From NCBI GenBank assembly GCA_016839555.1, contig JAEOUA010000004.1:1-64000 (forward strand): 64,000 nucleotides of DNA, in the 5' to 3' direction. A model generated the notes under the pieces. That model ran no database searches and was not told where the DNA came from. It saw nothing but the letters and a program-made list of their open reading frames with translations. The stretch is from Promethearchaeota archaeon. GTDB taxonomy: Archaea; Asgardarchaeota; Lokiarchaeia; Sigyniarchaeales; SOKP01. A program made the position numbers and the translations under genes. Below, piece by piece: positions 6,588 to 57,347 of this stretch; position 1 is the first letter of the stretch; the number at the start of each line of letters is the position of its first letter.

Positions 6588-8051
6588 TTGAAAAAATCCA
6601 TTAGAGCGAACGATTTTGGAGAATGGTGGGAAAAACCAGGATTAGGAATAATGTACCAAATCGAAGCAAGACCAGGATGGATTTGGGATCGAGATTTTGA
6701 TAAATTTAACGCTTCAATGAAAGATGAAAAGGGGAATTTTAGGTTTAATGGTCCTTTTTGTAAGATAAAGGATTGGGTGGAATTTTCAAATAAAGTAGGA
6801 GTAGATTATCATATATTTGAGGTAAAATGGCATGATGGAATTTGTTATTTTGATACTAAATATACCAAATGGAAAACCCCTACTGATTACAGCAAGATTT
6901 TTGCTGAGGAAAGTAAAAAAGCAAACATTCCATTTATGTTCTACTATTCTAGTGTATTTGATCACAACCCTCAGTTTGATGAAATTCAACCTCTTAGGAA
7001 ATTCACTCCCTCCTATATCGCTTTACATCGAGAAAAGAAAGAGGATGTCGTAAAATTCTGTTTAAAATTTACCCAAATGATCGTGAATCTTTTTGTAAAA
7101 CAATTTTTGGATAGAATGAATAAGGGTGAAAAATTTGAAGAATTTAAAAGTAATGATTTGAATATAGATATTAGAAGGTATTCTAAAAAGAACTTTAATA
7201 AGTTATTTAAGGATATTGAAGAAAATCCACCTCAATTTGACTATAATCCAGAACAGTATGAAAAATATCTAGAAAATCAAATGATTGAATTGATTGAAAA
7301 TTATAAGCCTGATGGTATGTGGATGGATTGGTATATGAATCCCTCTTTGAGAGAAGGATCTACAGAATTAATAATGGACTTAATGGAGAAAAAATATCCA
7401 AATGTAATTCTTACATTTAATAACAGTATAAATGAAAATCCGAGATGGTGCCATTATCTTAGCGGGGAAGCGCATACAGTAGAATCAGCTTGGAAACAAG
7501 GTAATGTAATTCGTAAAAAAAAGAAACCATGGGAATTGGTTGGTCCTGCAGCAAAAAGTTGGTTTGATCCATCACCCCGGACGGATCCCCAAGAAATAGG
7601 CAGAATAGCTACAATTATAATGGCAAATGGTGGAAAATTTTGTTTAGGTTTACCTTCTCAAATGAGTGGAAGTTTATATCCAGAACCTACTGAACAATTA
7701 GCGAAATTGGGAAAATGGTATAATCTTAGACGCTCTCTGTTTGTTGAAGCTGTTCCAATGGATTATAAAGGGAAAAATGTTCCTGGAATTATTTTGGATG
7801 ATAAAAATTTCGGAGTTATCGGCAATATTTATGGTTCAGATAACTTAATCCATATTATAAATTTCACAGGTATTCAAAAATCTATAAAAATAGAATTTTC
7901 TTATGAGTCTTGGAAAAATATAGAAAAGATTATCTTAGAGCCAATCAATCAAAAAGTTTCATTCAAATTAGTTGAAAAATATTATAAGGTAGAAATCTCC
8001 GAAAATTTTGTTGATAAAATTGATACTATATTAAGAATAAAAATGAAATAA
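6588..8051 (+). CDS. GH29 family alpha-L-fucosidase
   Basis: A 487-residue glycoside hydrolase of family 29, which removes terminal alpha-L-fucose with retention of configuration. The family's Lys-Trp-His-Asp-Gly stretch with following Tyr-Thr-Lys-Trp lies at residues 80-95 (the fucose-binding His and Trp). The likely nucleophile is Asp247 in Met-Trp-Met-Asp-Trp. The C-terminal 90 residues look like the family's beta-sandwich. No signal peptide is seen, so it probably acts inside the cell on imported oligosaccharide. The start is TTG: it has an AAGGGAT ribosome-binding site five bases upstream, and the first in-frame ATG would remove a conserved N-terminal part. It is next to a decayed alcohol dehydrogenase and a BKACE gene, in line with deoxyhexose breakdown. 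Confidence 0.86.
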   Translation: MKKSIRANDFGEWWEKPGLGIMYQIEARPGWIWDRDFDKFNASMKDEKGNFRFNGPFCKIKDWVEFSNKVGVDYHIFEVKWHDGICYFDTKYTKWKTPTDYSKIFAEESKKANIPFMFYYSSVFDHNPQFDEIQPLRKFTPSYIALHREKKEDVVKFCLKFTQMIVNLFVKQFLDRMNKGEKFEEFKSNDLNIDIRRYSKKNFNKLFKDIEENPPQFDYNPEQYEKYLENQMIELIENYKPDGMWMDWYMNPSLREGSTELIMDLMEKKYPNVILTFNNSINENPRWCHYLSGEAHTVESAWKQGNVIRKKKKPWELVGPAAKSWFDPSPRTDPQEIGRIATIIMANGGKFCLGLPSQMSGSLYPEPTEQLAKLGKWYNLRRSLFVEAVPMDYKGKNVPGIILDDKNFGVIGNIYGSDNLIHIINFTGIQKSIKIEFSYESWKNIEKIILEPINQKVSFKLVEKYYKVEISENFVDKIDTILRIKMK

Positions 8052-8053
8052 AA

Positions 8054-8200
8054 AGGCTGTGATAATTATAAAGAATTATGAAAGTATTAAAATTTGTGAT
8101 TTAAATGAACTACGCCCTAAGAGTGATGTACTGATCAAATCTTCCTTTCCATATGTCGTTTTTTCATAATTCTATATGAGTAGAAGTATTACTTATAATA
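8054..8200 (+). pseudogene. N-terminal remnant of a zinc-type alcohol/polyol dehydrogenase
   Basis: Directly behind the fucosidase stop, the frame beginning Lys-Ala-Val-Ile-Ile-Ile-Lys-Asn-Tyr-Glu resembles the start of medium-chain (MDR) dehydrogenases such as threonine or sorbitol dehydrogenase. It continues with an Arg-Pro-Lys-Ser-Asp-Val-Leu-Ile-Lys segment matching the usual pattern 'Pro-Gly-Glu-Val-Leu-Ile-Lys', and stops near 8170. In the next frame, Ile-Cys-Arg-Phe-Phe-Ile-Ile-Leu-Tyr-Glu looks like the family's Ile-Cys-Gly-(Ser/Thr)-Asp-x-His-x-Tyr-Glu with substitutions. About 45 codons with at least one frameshift remain and no nucleotide-binding domain follows. This reading rests on pattern memory only; a chance resemblance is possible. 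Confidence 0.5.
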
Positions 8201-8283
8201 GTTGAAATCTAATTTTTTTAAGTTGAATTTTACATTGAAAGAAAAAATTTTAATAAACTATAAATTCATTTTATAGAAGAGTT

Positions 8284-9087
8284 ATGAAAGATAATAACAA
8301 AATGATTTTAACGGCTACCACAGCTAATTCTTGGATTTATCCAGAAGTGAAAAATTGGTCAGAAAATTTGGATGATTTAATTAAGGACGTTATTCAATGC
8401 TATGAGGCAGGAGCAACCATCGCTCATGTCCATCTATCTCGGGGAAAAGAGGTCGAGACTGTAAGACGGATAAGAGAACATTGTGATATTATCATTCAAG
8501 CGGGAATGTCCTCTGATAATATCCCCAAAAGAAAGGGCGATTTCAAGGCAAGACCAGATATGATGTCTATAATTCTTAATCATCATGATGAACATTTTAC
8601 ACAAATTAGCGTGAATAAGCTTCACACACTCGAAGAATTGGAAGAATACTGTAAAAAATGCGCCGAATTTAATATAAAACCAGAATGGGAAGTATGGCAT
8701 ACGGGGAGTTATTGGAATTTAAATTATTTAATTGACAAAAAATTAATTAACCCTCCGCATGTATTGACGTTATTTTTCAATTGGCCCGGGGGCACATGGT
8801 CGCCAGCAACTGCAGATGAATATTTGCATAGAATTAAATATATGCCAGAAAATTGTGTGCATACAATTAGCGTAATGGGAGAAGAACAAACTAAGATAGC
8901 TACCTTAGCTATATCAAAAGGAGGCAATGTACGAGTAGGAACAGAGGATTTTCCTTTTTTAAAAAAAGGTATTCCTGCAAAAAATAACGCAGAAATAGTT
9001 GCTAGAATGAAAAGAATTAGTGAAGAAATGGGAAGGGAGGTGGCGACACCCTCCGAAGGAAGAGAAATTTTAGGATTAAACTATTAA
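8284..9087 (+). CDS. BKACE (DUF849) beta-keto acid cleavage enzyme
   Basis: A 267-residue TIM-barrel enzyme of the BKACE family (3-keto-5-aminohexanoate cleavage enzyme type). Family members condense a beta-keto acid with acetyl-CoA and split it into acetoacetate and a new acyl-CoA. Visible hallmarks are the Zn2+-binding His48-x-His50 in the Ala-His-Val-His-Leu-Ser stretch after beta-strand 2, and the C-terminal Val-Arg-Val-Gly-Thr-Glu-Asp with Glu221. The usual Arg after His-x-His-Leu is Ser here, which could indicate altered substrate choice. The Thr-Ala-Thr-Thr N-terminal strand fits the family. It lies 33 bases before an SDR dehydrogenase, so a secondary alcohol oxidised to a beta-keto acid and then cleaved is a plausible two-step route. 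Substrate unknown. Confidence 0.83.
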   Translation: MKDNNKMILTATTANSWIYPEVKNWSENLDDLIKDVIQCYEAGATIAHVHLSRGKEVETVRRIREHCDIIIQAGMSSDNIPKRKGDFKARPDMMSIILNHHDEHFTQISVNKLHTLEELEEYCKKCAEFNIKPEWEVWHTGSYWNLNYLIDKKLINPPHVLTLFFNWPGGTWSPATADEYLHRIKYMPENCVHTISVMGEEQTKIATLAISKGGNVRVGTEDFPFLKKGIPAKNNAEIVARMKRISEEMGREVATPSEGREILGLNY

Positions 9088-9120
9088 ATATACGAGAAAA
9101 AAGAAGATTAAGGTAATAAT

Positions 9121-9867
9121 ATGGAAATAATAAATAAAGTAGCAATTATTACTGGTGCAGGTGCTGGAATTGGAAAGGCGACCGCAAAATTATTTGCAAA
9201 AGAAGGAGCAAAAGTAGTATGTAATTCTCTTTCCGAATCTGCATTGAAAATCGTAGATAAATTAAAGAAAAAGGGTTTAGAAGCATTATTTGTGCAAGCC
9301 GATGTCTCTATAGAAGAAGAAGCAAAAGAAATTATTGATAAAACCATCGAGGTCTACGGTAAAATTGATATTTTATTCAATAACGCCGGTATTGTGATTC
9401 CAGGAGCAGTTGATACTATAACAACCGAAAATTGGGATAAGACGATGAATGTCAATGTGAAAGGGATATATTTAGTCTCTAAAAATGCAATTCCTTATTT
9501 AAAGAAAACTAAAGGAGTTATTATTAATAATTCATCATCAGTTGCCTTAAAGGGGGTCAAAGATAGAGCTGCCTATACCGCATCTAAGGGAGCTGTACTA
9601 TCTTTAACGAGAGCTATGGCTGCAGATTATATTGAGGATGGAATACGTGTAAATGCAATTTGTCCTGGTACTACTGACACACCTTCATTAGCACGACGGT
9701 TACAAAAATTCGAAGATCCTGAACAAGCACGAAAAGACTTTGTTGCACGTCAAAAAATGGGAAGATTAGGTAAACCAGAAGAGATCGCTAAGGGAGTGTT
9801 ATTGCTTGCGACTAATGAATTCATGACCGGAACCTATTTGTCCATTGATGGCGGAATGACCATGTAA
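9121..9867 (+). CDS. SDR-family NAD(P)-dependent oxidoreductase (first)
   Basis: A classical short-chain dehydrogenase/reductase of 248 residues. The Rossmann motif Thr-Gly-Ala-Gly-Ala-Gly-Ile-Gly is at 11-18, Asn-Asn-Ala-Gly at 87-90, and the catalytic triad is Ser139, Tyr152 and Lys156. A C-terminal Thr-Gly-x-x-Leu-Ser-Ile-Asp-Gly-Gly segment is typical of sugar-alcohol and 3-oxoacyl reductases. It follows the BKACE gene by 33 bases and is probably cotranscribed with it, so oxidation of a hydroxy acid or sugar acid to a keto acid is the natural inference. Substrate and coenzyme choice cannot be settled from sequence. Confidence 0.85.
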   Translation: MEIINKVAIITGAGAGIGKATAKLFAKEGAKVVCNSLSESALKIVDKLKKKGLEALFVQADVSIEEEAKEIIDKTIEVYGKIDILFNNAGIVIPGAVDTITTENWDKTMNVNVKGIYLVSKNAIPYLKKTKGVIINNSSSVALKGVKDRAAYTASKGAVLSLTRAMAADYIEDGIRVNAICPGTTDTPSLARRLQKFEDPEQARKDFVARQKMGRLGKPEEIAKGVLLLATNEFMTGTYLSIDGGMTM

Positions 9868-9874
9868 CGCAGAT

Positions 9875-10135
9875 TTAAAGCTCCCAATGGACATCTTTAT
9901 AATTTTGTTGAGTTACTTCATTTAAGTTTTCTAATAATAGCTTAGTATCATTTTTTACAGCATACTTGTTTAATTCTTCCCTTTTTGTTGCCTTTCCGTT
10001 TTTTGCTGCAAGATAAGCCAATAATACAATCGCAACCGCTTCCTTTGCGTCTTCGGGAGTAAATTCAGGTTCCATATCGTTTAAAATACAATCCGCAAAA
10101 TAGGAGTCTTCATGATATGCAGAAATTAAATAATT
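9875..10135 (-). pseudogene. C-terminal remnant of a Gfo/Idh/MocA oxidoreductase
   Basis: The last 66 codons read from an internal ATG at 10075, and the frame continues upstream without a stop to about 10135 and beyond. The translation (Glu-Asp-Ser-Tyr-Phe-Ala-Asp-Cys-Ile-Leu-Asn-Asp, then Glu-Pro-Glu-Phe-Thr-Pro, then Glu-Ala-Val-Ala) matches the C-terminal 85 residues of the intact Gfo/Idh/MocA protein at 12274-13401 nearly position for position. The NAD-binding domain and most of the C-terminal domain are missing. The fragment begins just behind the stop of the SDR gene at 10175, on the same strand. It is therefore a deletion remnant, not a small gene, and shows that this island once held a second oxidoreductase. 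Confidence 0.8.
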
Positions 10136-10174
10136 AATAAAAAGAGAAAATAATGTATTTAAAAAAACGGAGGT

Positions 10175-10951
10175 TTAGCGAGCAGTCCATCCTCCATCTA
10201 ATCTCAGATCTGCTCCTGTCATATAAGAAGCGTCATCGGAAGCTAAAAAGAGAATACCTGAGGCAATTTCTTCAGGTGTAGCCCACCGTCCTAACACCCC
10301 CTCCTCTTCGAATTCCTTTTTAACCACTTTATACTCAACACCTCTATCTCTGGCTTGTTTGGCAACATCACTTTGAAGCATCGGAGTATCTGTCGCTCCT
10401 GGCGAAACACTATTAACTCTAATATTATATGGGGCTAAATCTAACGCAAGTGCCTTAGTAAATCCAAGAACTCCTGCTTTCGTTGAGCAGTAATTGGCAT
10501 GATTTACTTGTCCTATATGCGCTGCTACGGAGGCAAGTGTAATTATCGTGCCATATCTCTGTTTTTTAAAATAAGGAATAGCATATTTACATGTAAAATA
10601 TGTTCCTTTGAGGTTTACATCAATTAGTAAATCATAATCTTCATCAGGAAAATCTTCAACTGGACCAACCCTTACCACTCCAGCATTCACAATTAGAATA
10701 TCAATTTTTCCGTGCTCATTTTTTGAAAATTCAATCATTTTCTTTACTTCTTCTGGGTTTCTGACATCAACTTTCATATATGTGGCTTTATTTTTACCTT
10801 CTTTTAGTAATTCATAGGTCTCTTTTAAGTTCTTTTCATCTATATCAGAGAGAACTTGAATAGCCCCTTCTTTTGCAAACATTTTAGCAGTTGCTCGCCC
10901 AATTCCGCTTGCTGCTCCTGTTAACACCACAACTTTATCTTTAAATCTCAT
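10175..10951 (-). CDS. SDR-family NAD(P)-dependent oxidoreductase (second)
   Basis: A 258-residue classical SDR. Thr-Gly-Ala-Ala-Ser-Gly-Ile-Gly is at 11-18, and Asp36 after beta-strand 2 favours NAD+ over NADP+. The Asn-Ala-Gly motif sits at 89-91 and the catalytic residues are Ser141, Tyr154 and Lys158. The Asn-Ser-Val-Ser-Pro-Gly-Ala-Thr-Asp-Thr-Pro stretch and the C-terminal Leu-Asp-Gly-Gly-Trp are as expected. It differs clearly from the SDR at 9121, so the two are not a recent duplicate. It lies on the opposite strand, downstream of the M24 peptidase-family gene and just upstream of the Gfo/Idh/MocA stump, which was probably once cotranscribed with it. A sugar or polyol substrate is inferred from the neighbourhood. 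Confidence 0.85.
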   Translation of the reverse strand: MRFKDKVVVLTGAASGIGRATAKMFAKEGAIQVLSDIDEKNLKETYELLKEGKNKATYMKVDVRNPEEVKKMIEFSKNEHGKIDILIVNAGVVRVGPVEDFPDEDYDLLIDVNLKGTYFTCKYAIPYFKKQRYGTIITLASVAAHIGQVNHANYCSTKAGVLGFTKALALDLAPYNIRVNSVSPGATDTPMLQSDVAKQARDRGVEYKVVKKEFEEEGVLGRWATPEEIASGILFLASDDASYMTGADLRLDGGWTAR

Positions 10952-33808: not shown

Positions 33809-34501
33809 ATGAGCATTTCAGATATTTTAAAACAAAAGGCAGGTGCAGGACAAAAAGTCCTCACAGAATATGAATCCAAAGAGATCTTAAGAAAGATCGG
33901 TATTCCTATTACTGATCAAAAATTAACCTCTAATAAAGAGGAAACCATTTCTGTAGCAGAAGAAATTGGGTTTCCTGTGGTTATGAAATTAATGGCAGAA
34001 GATGTGGTACATAAATCCGATATGGGCGCAGTGAAACTAAATATTAAAACTAATGAAGAAGTCGAACAGGCATTTGATGATTTAATGAAAATTCCCTCAG
34101 AAGCAGAAAAAAAGATTTCTGTGCAAAAAATGGCTAAAGAACCAATTACGGAATTAATTATTGGTATGACCACTGATCCACAATTTGGTCCTGCACTAAT
34201 GTTTGGGATTGGAGGGATATTGGTGGAACTTTTGGAAGATGTGAGCTTTCGAATTGCTCCCATTACTGAATACGATGCAAAAGAAATGATTCGCGAAATT
34301 AAAGGCTTCCCTCTTTTAGATGGATTTCGCGGAAAACCAAAGGCTGATATAGATGCCATTGTAGATACTCTCATGAAAATTTCTGAATTTGTTATCGAAA
34401 ATGAGGAAATCTATGAGATGGACCTAAATCCTGTGTTTATATATGAAGATGGGTTAGTTTGCGTTGACGCAAGAATAATATTAAAGTCCGAAAATAAGTA
34501 A
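33809..34501 (+). CDS. acdB: ADP-forming acetyl-CoA synthetase, beta subunit
   Basis: A 230-residue stand-alone ATP-grasp subunit of acetyl-CoA synthetase (ADP-forming), which makes ATP from acyl-CoA and ADP in peptide- and sugar-fermenting archaea. His68 in Val-Val-His-Lys-Ser-Asp-Met-Gly corresponds to the second phosphorylated histidine of the Pyrococcus enzyme. ATP-grasp residues follow in Glu-Leu-Ile-Ile-Gly-Met-Thr-Thr-Asp and Asp-Leu-Asn-Pro. The length is that of the archaeal beta subunit (about 230), not the fused form. No alpha subunit is in the window. The last 285 bases recur, altered, at 35683-35970, beyond the HEPN/MNT genes. Confidence 0.9.
   Translation: MSISDILKQKAGAGQKVLTEYESKEILRKIGIPITDQKLTSNKEETISVAEEIGFPVVMKLMAEDVVHKSDMGAVKLNIKTNEEVEQAFDDLMKIPSEAEKKISVQKMAKEPITELIIGMTTDPQFGPALMFGIGGILVELLEDVSFRIAPITEYDAKEMIREIKGFPLLDGFRGKPKADIDAIVDTLMKISEFVIENEEIYEMDLNPVFIYEDGLVCVDARIILKSENK
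34217..34501 (+). repeat. 3' segment of acdB, intact copy of a duplication
   Basis: This 285-base part of acdB has a diverged second copy at 35683-35970 in direct orientation, offset by 1466 bases. The HEPN/MNT pair occupies the space between them. The protein translations are about 90 per cent alike over 85 residues (by eye). Confidence 0.8.
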
Positions 34502-34544
34502 AATGGTTATTTGACCAATTTTTTTAAAGCATATAAAATTTAAT

Positions 34545-35045
34545 TTAAAATTCAATTTTTTCGCCAAAATACTTTATTGGCCACTGCCAATATAAGTTAG
34601 TCTTAATAACCCCTTTTTCTGTCAAATTCTTGAATAATTGTTTTTTCAAACGATGAAGCAACCCCTCTGGATCATAGAGGATCTTTCCCTCATCTAGTGC
34701 ATCTAAAATCAAATAGAATTTGTGTTTTACATGGTTTTTAATTTCTTTAGGTGTCCACCAGAGCGCTTGAATCCCCCCAATTACTGGTTTAGTCAATTTA
34801 AGAGTTTTTTTTCTTCTCTCCCATAGACTGTCCGGTAAATCTTCACTTATAATAATTAAATCTATATCACTCACATAATCATCAGTAATTCTTCCTTTCC
34901 CCTTCGCAACAGAACCGAATAGTAAAAGTCCTTTTATATTTATTTCTTGTCTAAAAAGATAGTCCGTAAATAATCGTAATTTTTTTTTAAAATAATTTTG
35001 CTTAATATAAGATAAATCTATTTCATGGATTTTATTTTTAGTCAA
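34545..35045 (-). CDS. MNT nucleotidyltransferase of a HEPN/MNT pair
   Basis: A 166-residue minimal nucleotidyltransferase with the pol-beta signature Leu-Leu-Phe-Gly-Ser-Val-Ala-Lys-Gly-Lys at 41-50 and Asp60-x-Asp62 (Ser-Asp-Ile-Asp-Leu-Ile) as metal ligands. In HEPN/MNT toxin-antitoxin pairs the MNT partner AMPylates the HEPN toxin. The start overlaps the end of the HEPN gene by eight bases, so the pair is translationally coupled with HEPN first. It is convergent with acdB. Confidence 0.82.
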   Translation of the reverse strand: MTKNKIHEIDLSYIKQNYFKKKLRLFTDYLFRQEINIKGLLLFGSVAKGKGRITDDYVSDIDLIIISEDLPDSLWERRKKTLKLTKPVIGGIQALWWTPKEIKNHVKHKFYLILDALDEGKILYDPEGLLHRLKKQLFKNLTEKGVIKTNLYWQWPIKYFGEKIEF

Positions 35046-35550
35046 AATTTATCACCTTTTTAATCATATTTTTGAAATACCTTAATTTTTTTCTCTCTAC
35101 ATTAAATTCTTGTAAATTTTTTAATAATTCTAAAATTTCTATTAATATTTCAATTACATTTTTGAGGTAAACTTTTGTCTTGATTATATCATATTCTTCC
35201 TCAGGTGGGATTAAATTCTCACCTTTCATGATCCCATATCTCGTTTTGGTCTCCTCTTGTTCTAAATCCTTTGCTAAATTGGCAATATTTAAAAGACTAT
35301 TGCGTTTATCTTCTTCTATATTACTATTTTCGCTTGATAAGAAGGATTCTATAATAATAGAAGGTTCATAAGTTTTCTTAAATTGTAACCCTAGTAAAAA
35401 TAATAATGCTTTTTGAAGTTGTTCAATTGAAAGTTGAATTCGAAATACACAGTCAGCATAATCCTTTACCTTATAATTTCTAATTACCCTGTCAAGATTA
35501 TTAAAAGCGAGTTTAAACCAATCTTTCGTTTTTTTGTAATTTATTACCAT
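35038..35550 (-). CDS. HEPN-domain protein of a HEPN/MNT pair
   Basis: A 170-residue all-helical protein. The Asp-Cys-Val-Phe-Arg-Ile-Gln-Leu-Ser-Ile-Glu-Gln-Leu-Gln-Lys-Ala-Leu stretch (33-49) is typical of HEPN helix 2, and Thr-Arg-Tyr-Gly at 103-106 resembles the late Ala-Arg-Tyr segment of the family. The RNase motif R-x4-6-H is not visible, because there is no His after the Arg in that region; it may therefore be a non-nucleolytic HEPN. It is the upstream gene of a two-gene pair with the MNT gene and lies between two acdB 3' segments. The toxin role is inferred from the pair architecture. Confidence 0.78.
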   Translation of the reverse strand: MVINYKKTKDWFKLAFNNLDRVIRNYKVKDYADCVFRIQLSIEQLQKALLFLLGLQFKKTYEPSIIIESFLSSENSNIEEDKRNSLLNIANLAKDLEQEETKTRYGIMKGENLIPPEEEYDIIKTKVYLKNVIEILIEILELLKNLQEFNVERKKLRYFKNMIKKVINFD

Positions 35551-35682
35551 TTGTTACATTTATTATAAACAATTATTCATTAACTATAATTCTATTTCAT
35601 TTAATCTCCTATTAAATATTTATTATGTCTAAAATTTAATTTTATAGATTATGCTCCTTTAGCCTATACAAAAGCAAATGAT

Positions 35683-35970
35683 ATTTTAGTAGAACTTTTA
35701 GAGGATGTGAGCTTTCGAATTGCTCCAATTATAGAATACGATGCAAAAAAAATGATTCGCGAAATTAAAGGCTTCCCTCTTTTAGATGGATTTCGCGGAA
35801 AATCAAAAGCTGATATTGATGCCATCGTAGATGCTCTCATGAAAATTTCTGATTTTATCATCGATAATGAGGAAATCTATGATATGAATCTAAATCCTGT
35901 ATTTATTTGCGAAGATGGGTTAGTTTGCGTGGATGCAAGAATTATTTTAAAATCTAAGGAAAAAGAATAG
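35683..35970 (+). pseudogene. Partial second copy of acdB (3' end)
   Basis: From Ile-Leu-Val-Glu-Leu-Leu-Glu-Asp-Val-Ser to the end of AcdB, the frame matches acdB closely (about 90 per cent by eye). There is no matching sequence for the first 135 codons and no start codon except an internal GTG at 35707. Upstream, the frame stays open for about a dozen codons of unrelated sequence (from about 35641). It cannot be a working ATP-grasp protein, as the phosphohistidine and nucleotide lobes are missing. The remnant of a second acdB copy is the simplest explanation. Confidence 0.85.
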
Positions 35971-36229: not shown

Positions 36230-39200
36230 ATGATAAAATTTACCATAAAAAAAAGAAAAACTAAAAGATGCATTTTTCTGATTATATTAACTTTTGGTTT
36301 ACTTTTCAGTGGATTCTTAGACTTAATTGCAAATCCTAATCTATTACAATCAAACAATTCAAATCTATATTATTATAATAATTTTCCAACTTCTCTACCT
36401 CATAGCTCTAATGGTTATTCCACATCATTTAATAATACAGGAAATCCATTGAATATAACATTACACCAATCTAAAATAGAGATGGGAACCCCCCTGTTTG
36501 AAATTTTAAATACTTCAGATAGTTCAAATAGTACAATTAGCACATCTACACCAAGTGACACGTTATTTAATTCAACCACATCTCAAATATTTATTGAAAA
36601 TATTACAGCACCAGATAAGATATTACAATTAGAAAATGATACAGATCATTATAGTGATTTGAGTACAGCTCGCTTATTTTCATTTGAAATACCAATAAAT
36701 TGCACCCTAGACAGTGTTACTATTTATTTAAATAATACATCCAGTGTAAATCCTACTGCTGTTGGGATATTTTTATGGGGTTCACAATCGGGATTACCAT
36801 ATAATTATATTACACAATTAGGAACCTCGAAAACAATACCAGCAGATGGTGAGGGATATTATACTTATAATAATCTTAATATTTTATTGAATGACACTGA
36901 CACTACAAATAAAATTTTCTTTATAAGAGTTATTGATACAGGTATAGGCAGCGCAAGAATATTTGGAAAAAATGATGGGGCGGATGGTGATCCAGATGAT
37001 TCAGATGTTTATTATTACCTTGTTGATCATTATGAATCAATAGCTATAGATTATTTTGCAAATATTACACTTAAGGCTAATAGTAATCCCTCAAGACCTT
37101 CTGATATAGGGCTTAAAATAAATGGCACACTTGTTGATAATGGTGGAGCTAGTGGTACTGGAAATCTAACAATTTTAAAAGAATATTCTACTTTACCAGA
37201 CCAAATAGAATATAATATCACGGCAGATTGGTGGGATGTCTCTTGCAATATTACAAAAATAATTGTAAATTATACTCGATCGGATTTAACTGCAATAACT
37301 GAATATAGCATTTCGGGTAGTAATCAAACAGTCCAATGGAATGCCACATTAGGTAACTTTAATAACTTTGACATTGCTTTTAATAATTATTGGATTAATT
37401 ATACTGTTCCTGAAAGTTGGCTAAATTTTAATGCCTATAATGCTTCAAATTCTATTCCATCAGAGAATATTACCGTAGGATCACCTTCGAATGGCTATAA
37501 AGAAGTACAAATCTATCCAGCGGGAAACAGTACAAATTGGTATATTTCCGCCGAATCTCCAAATTTAGTGAATGATATACTCGTATTTTTAGCAGGTGAA
37601 ACTAATGAAATATACAGCGTGAATCATTCAGACACTATAGATATTAATGTCACATTTTCTGATACAATTTGGAATGGAAATATCACCTTAAATATCTATA
37701 GTCCTTCTGATACAGGAAACTATCTTAATCATACGTATTCTCTCAATACTTCGTCTTTAAGCCCCAATACGGAATTTTATTTAAACAATTGGACAATAGA
37801 TAATATTAAAGATTACGGGATATTTAAAGTTCAAGTAGATTGGACTAATGGAACTGATGCAGGTTTCGTTGAGATAAACCTAACTATAAATGCAGTTACA
37901 GATCTAATTGTTCAAGGACCATCAACTACTATATATGATGCTGGTGATATCTTTGATGTGCAAGTGCTTTATAATGATACGGGACAGGGTCTGGATATTG
38001 ACAATGCGAATATATCATATAAAATCAATACCGGGAGTTATCGACCAATCGATCAAAACGTAACGAAACTGGGAAGCGGACTCTATAATATATCAGTTGA
38101 TTGTAATGATACCGATTTAATTTATGGTCAAAACACAATTACAATAAACGCAAGCAAACAATATTATAATGAAGCGACTACTAGCTTTAATTTTACGGTA
38201 TTCGCAGAAACCGCCCTAAGTATTAAATATCCTCCATTAGATTCCTTCTATAACTCAAGTGATACATTTGAAGTTCGGGTGTTTTTCAATGATACAATAA
38301 AAGATGCAGGTATTGATAATGCTATCATTAACTATAGTCTTGATGGTGGAAGCTCGTATAGGGGTGATAATGTTGAGAATTTCCATAATGGATATTACAA
38401 TATCACAGTTAATTGTAATGATACGCAATTCAATGATTATGGCGACATTACTCTAATAGTTAATGCTAGTAAAGCTTATCATCATAATCAGAGTCAACAA
38501 GTTAATATATCAGTAAAAGGAGAGACATTACTTACGATAATCAGCCCATCGCCTTTAGATTCCTTCAATTCTGGAGATACTTTCAATATAACTGTGCAAT
38601 ATAATGACACTTCGAGAAATCAAGGTATATCTGGAGCAAGTTTTACTGTGAAAGTAAACGGGACGGCTTATACAGAAGTAATTTATCACGATTTGTTAAA
38701 TGGAACTTATGATATTACTCTAAATGCTAGCGATAATGAGTTTTTCCCATATGGAATTGTAACTATTGAACTTAATTTCAGTAAAGATGTCTACTATTCA
38801 AGTAATAACTCGGTTCAAGTTCAAATAATTGGTGAATCAACTTTTGACAGACTTTCACCTGAGATGTATGCAATCTATCTATCGGGAGAACAATTCAATA
38901 TTATTTTACAATACAATGATTCTGTAAGAAATATTGGTATAGATGATGCAACTATTGAATACACATTGAACGGAACGGGATATAAATCAATCAATTGGGC
39001 ATATGAAGGTAATGGAATTTATAATATTACAATTGATGTGGATGATTCAGATTTTGGATCTACATATGGATATCGAAATATTATTGTTAATGTTTCAAGA
39101 GCCTTCTACGTGAATCATTCACTCACCTACACGTTCCATCGTCAGATTCCAACCTCAATTGATCCCTCCAATTTTCAGGATTTAGGATCAGTATTAAGAG

Positions 39201-41893
39201 GATTAAATGTATCATATACTTTTAATTACTCTGATACCCTTTCCAATCCAATATCGAGAGCTAATTATTCAGTAATTGGTGATGATTATAATTTCAATTA
39301 TTTCTTACAAGATTTTGGAAATGGTACATATACAATGCATCTCGATACCGATAATGTGGTTGCGGGATTCACTTATCAATTTCAATTTAATGTATCAGCA
39401 ACTGGAAATGAAACCCAAATAATAACCTTAAATATCACAGTGACTATCACTCAAACAGCTATCGTGAATGTATCATTTAATGATACCATCGCCAGAAATT
39501 CTGGATTAAATCAAACCATTGAGTTTTACTTCAATGATACTACTAATAACCAACCAATAACAGGATTAACTAGTAATGATATTGTTGTATATGATAACTC
39601 GACGGGTTCAATTTGGGATACGAATGATTTTAATTGGACTTTGATTAATATTGCTGGAGCTGGGAATTATCGTTTAAATGTTAGTATGAATACTAAAAAT
39701 TCTGGATGGTATACTTTAAGGATTGAAGTGTCGAAATTACCAAACTATGATACGAGTATTGAGTATATTACCTTTTACTTGAGAGGAAATTATACTCTAA
39801 TAGGTATGCAGACCGTAGAGGGCCCACAAACCAATCCTCTAGGTCCAATAGACGGAAATTATACAATATATCTCGGAAGCGATATGTATGTAGAATTTAA
39901 TATCACGGATACAGAGAATAGCAATAAACTTGTAACTGGGCCGGTTCTCAATTATGAAATATGGTATATAAACTTGGATGACTCAAGCGATAATGGAACA
40001 ATTTCAGAATCACTTTATTTTGATTCTATTGTTGATAATAGATTTGAAGGATCTATTTCAATTTCCCAAATTACAAACAATGGTACATATCAAATAACAA
40101 TAACAGTTGTGAAATTAAATTACGAAAATAGTACATATAGCTTTAACCTTACAATAGTTAATAGGCTCAATGTAAATCTACAAGTAATAAATCCGCCCAG
40201 TCAAATAATAGCAGGAGAAACATTCAATTTAACTTTTTATACCACATTATATAATGGAACTAATTGGATTCCGATTGAGAATGCGAGTATTTCAGTTATT
40301 ACCTATATTAATGGTCTATACTTTGACACTTTTCCAGGTACAACTAACAGCTCTGGATACGTGGTAATTCAGATGACTATTCCAAATACTGCAAAAACCA
40401 TGAATTTAACAGTTCAATTAACCGGAGATTATTATCATAAAGATACATCAATTATCATCGATTATATATCAGTAAAGTCAACAATTGCTCCTATTTTCCC
40501 TCCTGGTGAAGAAGGATTTACTTTGGAAGATATACTCCTTTACTTAATAATCGGGATTGTTGGAATCGTTGTCATTATATCTGCGGTTGCAGTGCATAGA
40601 AAAGTTATTGTACCAAAAAAGGAAGCGAAACAAAAGATTCTAAAAGAAGTTAAAACCATATTTGACGATGCGATTAATTTAGAACATCTTTTAGTATTAT
40701 ATAAAGGTATGGGGGCATGTATCTTTTTCAAATCGTTTGCTTCAGAAAAGATTGATCCCGATTTAATTAGTGGATTTATCTCCGCTGTTTCTTCATTTGG
40801 AAAAGAAATCGAATCACAAAAAGCATTAAATGAGATGAAGTACGGCGATAAAACATTACTTCTTTCTGATGGAGAATATATTAGAGTAGCATTAGTTTTA
40901 GATAAAAAAGCATCCTTACCTTTAAGAAGAAATCTTAGAGAATTCGTTATAGAGTTTGAGGAGAAATATGGAGATCAATGTGAAGAATGGAGAGGAAAAC
41001 TAGATGTATTTAAAGGTGCTGAGCCTTTAGTAGATAAACACTTTAATACCTCAATAATTCTCCCCCACAGAATTTACTATAAACCTGCAGTTGTAAAAAG
41101 TCTTAAAAATACACATAGCAAGGATATTTTAAAAATTACAGAAAAATTACTAAAAGAAACCGGAAGAGAGTTCTTTTTCATTTCAAAATTACTTGATAAG
41201 ACAAAACAAGAAAGTAATAAAGATATTGCAGAAATTTTCATGGGAATTAAAGATTTGAGGGAGCGGGGATTACTTGCTCCCATAGATATCAGTAAACTTG
41301 AAGAAATACCAATATCTCCAGAAGAACGAAGAGAAATTGAGCAAAAAGTATATCAATTTTTAAAGCTTCCTGAAGCACAAAAACAAGAAATTATCGAGCA
41401 GCTATTAAAAACAAGTCCAGAAGAAAGGCGAGCTTATATCGCCAGTTTAGAAAAACAAGAAGAGATTATATCCGCTCCAGTGAAATCGAAAATAGGTGAA
41501 AAGGTGATTGAAAATAAAAAAGAAGCCAAAAATGAGCTAAAAAAGCTTAGGAAAAGAGCAGATAAAGAGAGAGCAATTCATAATTATCAAAAAGCGATTG
41601 ATATATATGAACAGGCAGCAATTATTGCTAATAATTGGGATATGAAAGATTTATTTGCAGAATATCAAGAAGAAATACGGCTTACACAAATAGGCGAAAA
41701 TGAGCTTAATATGAAAGAACATGTACAAAAAGCTGAAAAATTTGAAAAACGGGAAGATTATAAAAATGCAGCTGAAGAATATGAGCAAGCATCGAAATTT
41801 GCTTCACAAATATTTAAGTTGGGAGAAAATAAAATGCAAGATTTAGTGAAAGAATATACTAGAAAAGCAAAGAAATTTCAAAAAATGAGTTAA
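36230..41893 (+). CDS. Giant surface protein: repeated beta domains, one TM helix, longin/roadblock-like cytoplasmic domain
   Basis: 1887 residues. An N-terminal basic segment and hydrophobic helix (about 13-35) act as signal or anchor. Residues 40-550 are beta-rich with dozens of Asn-x-Ser/Thr sites. From 555 to about 1075 come five units of roughly 105 residues (Gly-Asp-x-Phe-x-Val-x-Val-x-Tyr-Asn-Asp-Thr, later Asn-Gly-x-Tyr-x-Ile), followed by two more divergent units and a Big-like domain (1313-1420). A TM helix lies at about 1435-1460. Inside the cell, about 1475-1620 looks longin/roadblock-like (Phe-Asp-Asp-Ala-Ile-Asn-Leu, then Phe-Phe-Lys-Ser-Phe). Charged helices and TPR/MIT-like helix pairs (1770-1887) end the protein. 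It is a single-gene unit. I do not recognise a named family for the whole. Confidence 0.78.
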   Translation: MIKFTIKKRKTKRCIFLIILTFGLLFSGFLDLIANPNLLQSNNSNLYYYNNFPTSLPHSSNGYSTSFNNTGNPLNITLHQSKIEMGTPLFEILNTSDSSNSTISTSTPSDTLFNSTTSQIFIENITAPDKILQLENDTDHYSDLSTARLFSFEIPINCTLDSVTIYLNNTSSVNPTAVGIFLWGSQSGLPYNYITQLGTSKTIPADGEGYYTYNNLNILLNDTDTTNKIFFIRVIDTGIGSARIFGKNDGADGDPDDSDVYYYLVDHYESIAIDYFANITLKANSNPSRPSDIGLKINGTLVDNGGASGTGNLTILKEYSTLPDQIEYNITADWWDVSCNITKIIVNYTRSDLTAITEYSISGSNQTVQWNATLGNFNNFDIAFNNYWINYTVPESWLNFNAYNASNSIPSENITVGSPSNGYKEVQIYPAGNSTNWYISAESPNLVNDILVFLAGETNEIYSVNHSDTIDINVTFSDTIWNGNITLNIYSPSDTGNYLNHTYSLNTSSLSPNTEFYLNNWTIDNIKDYGIFKVQVDWTNGTDAGFVEINLTINAVTDLIVQGPSTTIYDAGDIFDVQVLYNDTGQGLDIDNANISYKINTGSYRPIDQNVTKLGSGLYNISVDCNDTDLIYGQNTITINASKQYYNEATTSFNFTVFAETALSIKYPPLDSFYNSSDTFEVRVFFNDTIKDAGIDNAIINYSLDGGSSYRGDNVENFHNGYYNITVNCNDTQFNDYGDITLIVNASKAYHHNQSQQVNISVKGETLLTIISPSPLDSFNSGDTFNITVQYNDTSRNQGISGASFTVKVNGTAYTEVIYHDLLNGTYDITLNASDNEFFPYGIVTIELNFSKDVYYSSNNSVQVQIIGESTFDRLSPEMYAIYLSGEQFNIILQYNDSVRNIGIDDATIEYTLNGTGYKSINWAYEGNGIYNITIDVDDSDFGSTYGYRNIIVNVSRAFYVNHSLTYTFHRQIPTSIDPSNFQDLGSVLRGLNVSYTFNYSDTLSNPISRANYSVIGDDYNFNYFLQDFGNGTYTMHLDTDNVVAGFTYQFQFNVSATGNETQIITLNITVTITQTAIVNVSFNDTIARNSGLNQTIEFYFNDTTNNQPITGLTSNDIVVYDNSTGSIWDTNDFNWTLINIAGAGNYRLNVSMNTKNSGWYTLRIEVSKLPNYDTSIEYITFYLRGNYTLIGMQTVEGPQTNPLGPIDGNYTIYLGSDMYVEFNITDTENSNKLVTGPVLNYEIWYINLDDSSDNGTISESLYFDSIVDNRFEGSISISQITNNGTYQITITVVKLNYENSTYSFNLTIVNRLNVNLQVINPPSQIIAGETFNLTFYTTLYNGTNWIPIENASISVITYINGLYFDTFPGTTNSSGYVVIQMTIPNTAKTMNLTVQLTGDYYHKDTSIIIDYISVKSTIAPIFPPGEEGFTLEDILLYLIIGIVGIVVIISAVAVHRKVIVPKKEAKQKILKEVKTIFDDAINLEHLLVLYKGMGACIFFKSFASEKIDPDLISGFISAVSSFGKEIESQKALNEMKYGDKTLLLSDGEYIRVALVLDKKASLPLRRNLREFVIEFEEKYGDQCEEWRGKLDVFKGAEPLVDKHFNTSIILPHRIYYKPAVVKSLKNTHSKDILKITEKLLKETGREFFFISKLLDKTKQESNKDIAEIFMGIKDLRERGLLAPIDISKLEEIPISPEERREIEQKVYQFLKLPEAQKQEIIEQLLKTSPEERRAYIASLEKQEEIISAPVKSKIGEKVIENKKEAKNELKKLRKRADKERAIHNYQKAIDIYEQAAIIANNWDMKDLFAEYQEEIRLTQIGENELNMKEHVQKAEKFEKREDYKNAAEEYEQASKFASQIFKLGENKMQDLVKEYTRKAKKFQKMS
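37892..39460 (+). repeat. Tandem ~105-residue extracellular beta-domain units
   Basis: Five consecutive units in the surface protein share a Gly/Ser-Asp-x-Phe-x-(Val/Ile)-x-(Val/Leu)-x-(Tyr/Phe)-(Asn)-Asp-(Thr/Ser) edge strand and an Asn-Gly-(Thr/Ile/Tyr)-Tyr-(Asp/Asn)-Ile-Thr strand about 55 residues later. Approximate starts are residues 555, 662, 766, 870 and 974. Similarity falls in the fifth, suggesting older duplication. Likely immunoglobulin-like folds. Confidence 0.65.
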
Positions 41894-56303: not shown

Positions 56304-57347
56304 ATGACACGGTTAATTAAAGGGTTGGTGTATATAGAATTCCTTGATATTAAAGGCGTCACCCCTACTGTTTGGCTCCCCGAAGAATTAGATGAACAAT
56401 TAAGAGTACTATGCGGAATTAAAGCGGTTTCCTTACTCACGGGAGAAGACAATCATATTCCGAAGTCACTAATTACTATACCCTTTCCTTCTCGGAATTT
56501 AAAAGCAATCATTAAATTCATAAAATGGAAGGATCAAGATAGGCGAGGAGAAATTGGCCAATCTTCACTTTTTTTACTGTTTAATGAAGCTGATGATGCG
56601 ATCTTTTATAAAGCACAAAAATATCTTGAAGAAGTTTTTAATGAGCTTATAGAAGAAATCATATATATTGAAAAACACTCATCAGATAAATTAAAATTAG
56701 CTCACATTATTTCAGAATTTCAAACTCAAATTGATTTTATTCTAACAGATTTAAAACAAAAAGAAATTTCTAAGAGAAAGATTGAAGAATTTCCTTCTTT
56801 AAGAAAAGAAGGTGCTTTAACAACAGAAAATATTGATCTAAAATTAAAAACAATAGTTTGTGGAGATCCAATGGTTGGCAAGACTTCTATCATATTAAGA
56901 TTAACGGATGATGCGTTTACAAGAACATATTTACCTACATTGGGTGTAAATATATCTGAAAAGATGATAAAAATTGATGGAAACTACATTCAATTAGTAT
57001 TTTGGGATTTAGCAGGGCAATCAAAATTCAATTCTATGCGCATTCACTATTATCAAGGAGCAGAAGTAGTATTATTGGTTTTTGATCTGACAAATAAGGA
57101 CAGTTTTAAGAATATTAATAAATGGTATGAAGATATTCAGAAGAATTTTAAAAATAAAAAGGAATTAATTGGATTTCTGATTGGAAATAAAAATGACTTA
57201 AATGAAAAAAGATTAATTGAACAAAATAATGCTTTAGAACTTGCAGAGAAGTTAAATCTGCAATATTTCGAAACTTCTGCATTAACCGGTGAAAATATTC
57301 AAGACATGTTTGAGATTATAGGAAAAAAGTTTCTGGAAATTATTTAA
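56304..57347 (+). CDS. Rab-like small GTPase with N-terminal longin-like domain
   Basis: 347 residues. The N-terminal 130 residues are an alpha/beta segment with the length and strand pattern of a longin-type domain. A linker follows, then a complete Ras/Rab domain (180-347): G1 Gly187-Asp-Pro-Met-Val-Gly-Lys-Thr-Ser, G2 Thr212, G3 Trp234-Asp-Leu-Ala-Gly-Gln, G4 Asn295-Lys-Asn-Asp, G5 Thr-Ser-Ala near 324. The Gln in the G3 motif should support GTP hydrolysis. No C-terminal Cys for prenylation is present, so membrane attachment must come by another route, perhaps the longin-like domain. The start ATG is near an AGC-rich leader; no strong ribosome-binding site is seen. Confidence 0.85.
   Translation: MTRLIKGLVYIEFLDIKGVTPTVWLPEELDEQLRVLCGIKAVSLLTGEDNHIPKSLITIPFPSRNLKAIIKFIKWKDQDRRGEIGQSSLFLLFNEADDAIFYKAQKYLEEVFNELIEEIIYIEKHSSDKLKLAHIISEFQTQIDFILTDLKQKEISKRKIEEFPSLRKEGALTTENIDLKLKTIVCGDPMVGKTSIILRLTDDAFTRTYLPTLGVNISEKMIKIDGNYIQLVFWDLAGQSKFNSMRIHYYQGAEVVLLVFDLTNKDSFKNINKWYEDIQKNFKNKKELIGFLIGNKNDLNEKRLIEQNNALELAEKLNLQYFETSALTGENIQDMFEIIGKKFLEII

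Follow-up and report, generated by a model that had tools for sequence, protein, structure and literature searches.

A predicted Lokiarchaeial surface receptor with a longin domain under the membrane, and its relatives in operons with small GTPases

Longin domains and the receptor gene of the window

Dimers of longin and roadblock domains are established platforms for small GTPases (PMC10933270, PMC12383261). In the MglA-MglB system of Myxococcus and in the core longins of TRAPP, such dimers determine which nucleotide state a small GTPase adopts, and longin dimers of the tri-longin RabGEFs MON1-CCZ1 and FUZ-INTU, heterodimers with three longin domains per subunit, activate Rab GTPases. Asgard genomes are rich in small GTPases, longins and roadblocks, and the literature we found offers no cue for when these GTPases act. 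Genome context is reported to yield few pairings of GTPases with their regulators, and Asgard GTPase genes as a rule to share no operon with the genes of longins or roadblocks (PMC10933270). A longin-tailed receptor encoded in one operon with one GTPase and one further longin would constitute such a concrete pairing of signal, regulator and switch, and it is a paralog of receptors of this kind that we describe here.

The window is a stretch of 64,000 nucleotides from a Promethearchaeota archaeon of the Lokiarchaeia (contig JAEOUA010000004.1 of assembly GCA_016839555.1, positions 1 to 64,000). Its open reading frame at 36230-41893 on the forward strand, with an ATG at 36230, a stop at 41893 and a product of 1887 residues, is a genuine, conserved gene, and its coordinates and length agree exactly with a preliminary description made from the letters of the window. 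A public contig of Lokiarchaeota isolate BC1 carries a full-length relative that is 80% identical, and orthologs in several genera of the same family share 42-60% identity. The cytoplasmic part is matched in all 61 searched genomes of the host family, with 8 to 26 matches in each, and more than half of these genomes hold one near full-length match at E < 1e-60. Thirty orthologous cytoplasmic regions, once aligned, are strongly conserved from end to end, the ectodomain being the less conserved portion, and no relative of the receptor was found in the viral contigs searched. The gene and its parts, in window coordinates, are as follows.

36230-41893, forward strand: whole gene, a predicted single-pass surface receptor of 1887 residues with a cytoplasmic longin domain; orthologs keep the order of the parts
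36263-36328, forward strand: signal-peptide-like hydrophobic segment, residues 12-33 (hydropathy; also in full-length orthologs)
36392-37708, forward strand: N-terminal ectodomain region, residues 55-493, common to operon receptors of ~760 residues (profile-profile match)
37934-39181, forward strand: four tandem beta-type repeats of ~104 residues each, residues 569-984 (E 1e-45 to 1e-49)
40211-40420, forward strand: MG2-like (macroglobulin, Ig-like fold) stretch, residues 1328-1397 (Pfam, below cut-off)
40532-40588, forward strand: single transmembrane helix, residues 1435-1453 (hydropathy; C-terminal side positively charged)
40661-41056, forward strand: longin domain of the MON1/FUZ first-longin type, residues 1478-1609 (profile homology via paralogs)
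41057-41299, forward strand: conserved helical segment, winged-helix-like, residues 1610-1690 (alignment; the winged-helix reading is a putative one)
41318-41890, forward strand: helical TPR/MIT-like tail, residues 1697-1887 (AlphaFold, profile and structure comparison)

Predicted topology and cytoplasmic domains

The predicted topology is receptor-like, that of a single-pass (type I) surface protein. Hydropathy and the asymmetry of glycosylation sequons together indicate a signal peptide (a hydrophobic helix at about residues 12-30, preceded by a lysine/arginine-rich N-terminus), an ectodomain of about 1400 residues, one strong transmembrane helix at 1435-1453 with the basic stretch HRKVIVPKKEAKQK directly behind it, and a cytoplasmic C-terminus. 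Residues 41-1462 contain 85 N-x-S/T sequons, whereas shuffled sequence has 33 +/- 4.9, and a single one lies C-terminal to the helix; orthologs carry up to 108 before the helix versus 0-4 from the longin start on, counted for the best domain match of each. The membrane helix near residue 1450 and the dozens of sequons of the preliminary description are both borne out, the latter with a bias to the ectodomain that orthologs share. Its array of Ig-like repeats stands in part. Four tandem ~104-residue copies are present, a number that runs from 1 to 8 in orthologs, while an Ig-like fold is no more than plausible from an MG2 match at residues 1328-1397, whose E of 3.6e-5 corresponds to 24.5 bits where Pfam sets its cut-off at 32.8. 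In 20 other receptors the longin domain follows the transmembrane helix at a spacing of 38-48 residues, while ectodomains vary from about 500 to 2400 residues.

Profile homology confirms the assignment of residues ~1478-1609 to the longin domains of the MON1/FUZ first-longin type, and not to the roadblocks. The assignment is transitive because the receptor sequence alone and an ortholog-only profile fall short of PF19036 and MON1, and it is paralogs that link them. Searched directly against Pfam, the receptor region reaches no longin model, including PF19036 (Fuz_longin_1, which models the first longin of FUZ, MON1 and HPS1). Two standalone paralogs of the same genome (L022, L025) score 35.3 and 33.8 bits against that model, for which the cut-off is 26.1. 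The receptor domain profile finds these two at E 4e-11 and 7e-13, and at E about 1e-11 it finds a fusion of the longin with an Arf-like GTPase encoded in the same genome. Run against 177,635 PDB sequences, a pooled domain profile has MON1 (four), AP-4 sigma and MglB (three) as its top eight matches, with TRAPP subunits further down the list from E 0.004. By hhalign, the pooled profile pairs with MON1 at 92.9% probability and with the longins of the operons described below at 98%, against a maximum of 1.1% in the controls (60 column-shuffled alignments for each comparison); the ortholog-only profile gives 0.5% and 62%, respectively. Weak and inconsistent Pfam matches of the region to a glutathione synthetase ATP-grasp domain and to a death effector domain were judged to be chance.

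The preliminary description had spoken of a longin/roadblock-like domain, and of these two the paralog profiles retain the longin. Against the roadblock N-terminus of Rab proteins encoded near receptor orthologs, hhalign probabilities are 1.0% for the pooled profile and 0.3% for the orthologs, and the domain is not assigned to the Roadblock/LC7 proteins of the MglB type. The structural check that had been proposed at the same time did not confirm the longin fold: with a two-sequence alignment (the window protein and L030), AlphaFold places the longin region at pLDDT mostly 25-45, both when the cytoplasmic part is modelled and when the domain is modelled alone.

Behind the longin domain, residues 1610-1690 may form a winged helix, and this segment is also the C-terminus of the ~760-residue receptors. 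The TPR/MIT-like helical tail proposed earlier was recovered at residues 1697-1887, where AlphaFold gives pLDDT values mostly of 75-93. Its model is similar to TPR proteins and to the MIT protein calpain-7 bound to IST1, but none of these matches reaches E 0.001, and weak MIT matches occur in 8 of 30 orthologs. One could accordingly picture the longin as a mere scaffold, with the winged-helix-like segment and the tail bringing in ESCRT-type or cytoskeletal proteins wherever the surface makes contact. The resemblances just given, and the conservation of the tail in all aligned orthologs, are what such an output would predict, but the ~760-residue receptors of the same family keep the longin and have no tail, and we consider it improbable that the tail is the principal output. 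Matches of the cytoplasmic profile to beta-catenin in the PDB (E about 0.15-1.7) were disregarded.

Receptor relatives, operons and neighbouring genes

Several Asgard families have receptors of this class. The preliminary description had suggested comparing Asgard genomes for the same order of domains, and this order is indeed kept in orthologs; further, a profile that comprises the transmembrane helix, the longin and the winged-helix-like segment (A5) matches 111 of 119 genomes of the phylum, many of which hold open frames of 1200-2000 residues with a match starting in the transmembrane helix. Receptors fetched from several other Asgard families have 20-75 sequons before the helix and 0-6 after it, and most of the complete ones possess an N-terminal hydrophobic segment. 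Within the host genome, the ortholog-domain profile recovers a whole longin-domain family: ectodomain-bearing receptors (L016, L017), multi-pass membrane proteins (L018, L020, L021), the two standalone domains (L022, L025), a fusion of the domain with a winged helix (L019), a protein in which the domain follows TPRs (L027) and one in which it is fused to an Arf-like GTPase (L023). In a midpoint-rooted tree built on a short alignment of the longin domain, all single-pass receptors and one multi-pass protein fall on one side, with the soluble longins opposite.

The longin domain of multi-pass proteins lies at the C-terminus (L020:7149-8243, L021:5831-6964, L018:8336-10576, L142:2154-3425). Receptors of ~760 residues with a longin also occur in clusters of two to four (L113, L114, L115, L116, L117, L122), and the fetched stretches around these clusters hold no GTPase gene.

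Certain paralogs are genetically linked to a small GTPase. On one strand of contig 5 of the host genome, a paralogous receptor is followed, after a gap of 33 nt, by a Rag/Arf-like GTPase gene (Arf 83 bits, Gtr1/Rag 82 bits), which overlaps a second longin-like gene by 8 nt. On locus L016 of that contig the receptor occupies 8022-10379, the GTPase 7431-7988 and the second longin 6986-7438. The identical order of three genes is found in G019, G022, G025, G053 and G057, six genomes with that of the host, and in G004 a receptor and a GTPase stand at the end of a contig. Among homologs of the operon GTPase at E < 1e-50, seven of nine lie directly behind such a receptor, and of the 21 more remote homologs whose loci were fetched none lies behind a single-pass receptor; one of these 21 (in G018) is found behind a multi-pass longin protein, with a longin gene adjacent. 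Homology between the operon receptors and the window protein covers the ectodomain (profile-profile probability 97.5, E 5.7e-12, 394 columns) and, as the tree indicates, the longin domain too. The multi-pass longin protein of L142 is encoded in one operon together with a longin and a Rag/Arf-like GTPase, so that the receptor slot of the operon seems exchangeable.

The genetic linkage of paralogs thus suggests that receptor and small GTPase may be coupled physically and functionally. The preliminary description had proposed a link of this kind, and it gains from the operons and from the longin-GTPase fusion in the genome, whereas regulation or binding is a further step that we only infer. Many ~760-residue receptors are arrayed in tandem with no GTPase among them, which counts against reading the family as GTPase receptors, and some longins, such as those of SNAREs and the small chains of adaptors, do not regulate GTPases. 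Given such longins (PMC10933270), the window protein might instead be a structural surface glycoprotein or adhesin, its longin serving sorting, dimerisation or anchoring with GTPase control absent. The very large ectodomain, the variable repeat number and the heavy sequon load are in keeping with an adhesin, as is the window gene itself, which has no GTPase gene adjacent to it; yet an adhesin would not predict that paralogous receptors share operons with a GTPase and a longin, that a longin of the same family is fused to a GTPase, or that orthologs conserve the cytoplasmic part better than the ectodomain. On balance we regard the adhesin as unlikely, although a reading to be taken seriously.

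The immediate neighbourhood of the window gene is occupied by a metabolic gene, listed here as context only.

33809-34501, forward strand: ATP-grasp gene (ADP-forming acyl-CoA synthetase beta-like), the upstream neighbour
35683-35954, forward strand: second copy of the 3' end of the ATP-grasp gene, 272 bp, 89% identical

Almost all orthologs whose flank is long enough, including in another family, have the ATP-grasp gene upstream. A roadblock-Rab GTPase gene lies a few kilobases upstream of orthologs of the window protein in eight genomes drawn from four genera, as well as in one from another family (for example L093:1142-2365, L097:1274-2386, L106:1684-2793 and L107:2286-3371, of which the L106 member reaches the Robl_LC7 cut-off), and the ATP-grasp gene, the more constant neighbour of the two, sits between it and the receptor. 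This proximity is weaker evidence for a GTPase than the paralog operons, because the ATP-grasp gene intervenes, because roughly half of the orthologs with a sufficiently long flank have no roadblock-Rab gene there, and because no close ortholog of that gene was found in the genus of the window; none stands beside the window gene itself. The same facts, the constancy of the ATP-grasp gene and the frequent lack of the GTPase, would suit a receptor that senses or serves the upstream acyl-CoA synthetase, the proximity of the GTPase being inherited gene order without function. Such a metabolic role leaves the separate receptor-GTPase-longin operons and the longin domain itself unexplained, and we hold it to be very improbable. 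The preliminary description had also named the Rab-like protein at 56304 as a candidate for complex models, and it gained no support as a partner: the ~175-residue N-terminal part of this GTPase (56304-57347), about half of the protein, matches no Pfam family, and the gene shows no special relation to the receptor and is not the orthologous counterpart of the roadblock-Rab neighbour in other genera.

Between the ATP-grasp gene and its duplicated 3' end (window 33809-35970) lies a HEPN/MNT-type pair on the opposite strand (34545-35550). Another genome (L099) has a duplicated 3' end of the ATP-grasp gene (7632-7859) alongside a different gene (7902-9143). The 3' end of the ATP-grasp gene seems to be a hot spot for insertions that duplicate it.

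A candidate mechanism and its relation to described systems

In light of the observed architecture and topology signals, the longin homology, the Asgard-wide family and the operons of its paralogs, we favour with moderate confidence a surface receptor of the Lokiarchaeia whose juxtamembrane longin is a platform for a Ras-superfamily GTPase. The glycosylated ectodomain would extend outward and one helix would span the membrane, while the longin directly beneath, probably in a dimer with itself or with another longin, would host the GTPase. Binding of a ligand outside, or clustering, would alter the longin dimer or how densely it is packed there, and the longin would in turn draw the GTPase to the membrane or shift its nucleotide state, acting perhaps as a GEF, a GAP or a scaffold, with the winged-helix-like segment and the TPR/MIT-like tail recruiting further partners. 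For the window protein, and for whichever GTPase may be its partner, everything beyond a longin under the membrane is conjectural and draws its support from the genetic linkage of paralogs.

In the closest relatives of eukaryotes, signals at the cell surface may thus pass straight to the control of a GTPase and, if so, the origin of GTPase control before eukaryotes would be open to direct biochemistry. More broadly, we entertain as a tentative proposal, somewhat short of an even chance, that single-pass glycosylated receptors throughout the Asgard phylum signal directly to Rag/Arf- and Rab-like GTPases via a juxtamembrane longin, a mode that is undescribed in archaea, bacteria and eukaryotes as far as we found, and that this stock of domains could have supplied the longin RabGEFs of eukaryotes. 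No description of an Asgard longin receptor appeared in the literature searched, mostly journal papers available without subscription, and the architecture is provisionally new within that search, although built from a known domain.

The Asgard longin, roadblock and longin-GTPase fusion proteins already described (PMC10933270) are of the same domain type and come from the same archaeal group; no transmembrane or receptor architecture is mentioned for that set, whereas here the longin belongs to a receptor, and a GTPase and a longin can follow the receptor in an operon. By profile, the closest described longin family is that of the tri-longin RabGEFs (PF19036), although their subunits have three longin domains and only one was found in the window protein, which we do not file as a member. 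We know of no tri-longin RabGEF with an ectodomain or a transmembrane helix of this kind. Plexins, which are single-pass receptors with Ig-like parts in the ectodomain, use their cytoplasmic part to act on a Ras-family GTPase directly; the logic is similar, although plexins are eukaryotic and employ an unrelated GAP domain, and homology is not claimed. Finally, MglA-MglB and TRAPP, both of which are represented among the PDB matches of the domain profile, are cytoplasmic or peripheral and are not fused to a surface receptor, whereas the longin of the window protein is joined to one.
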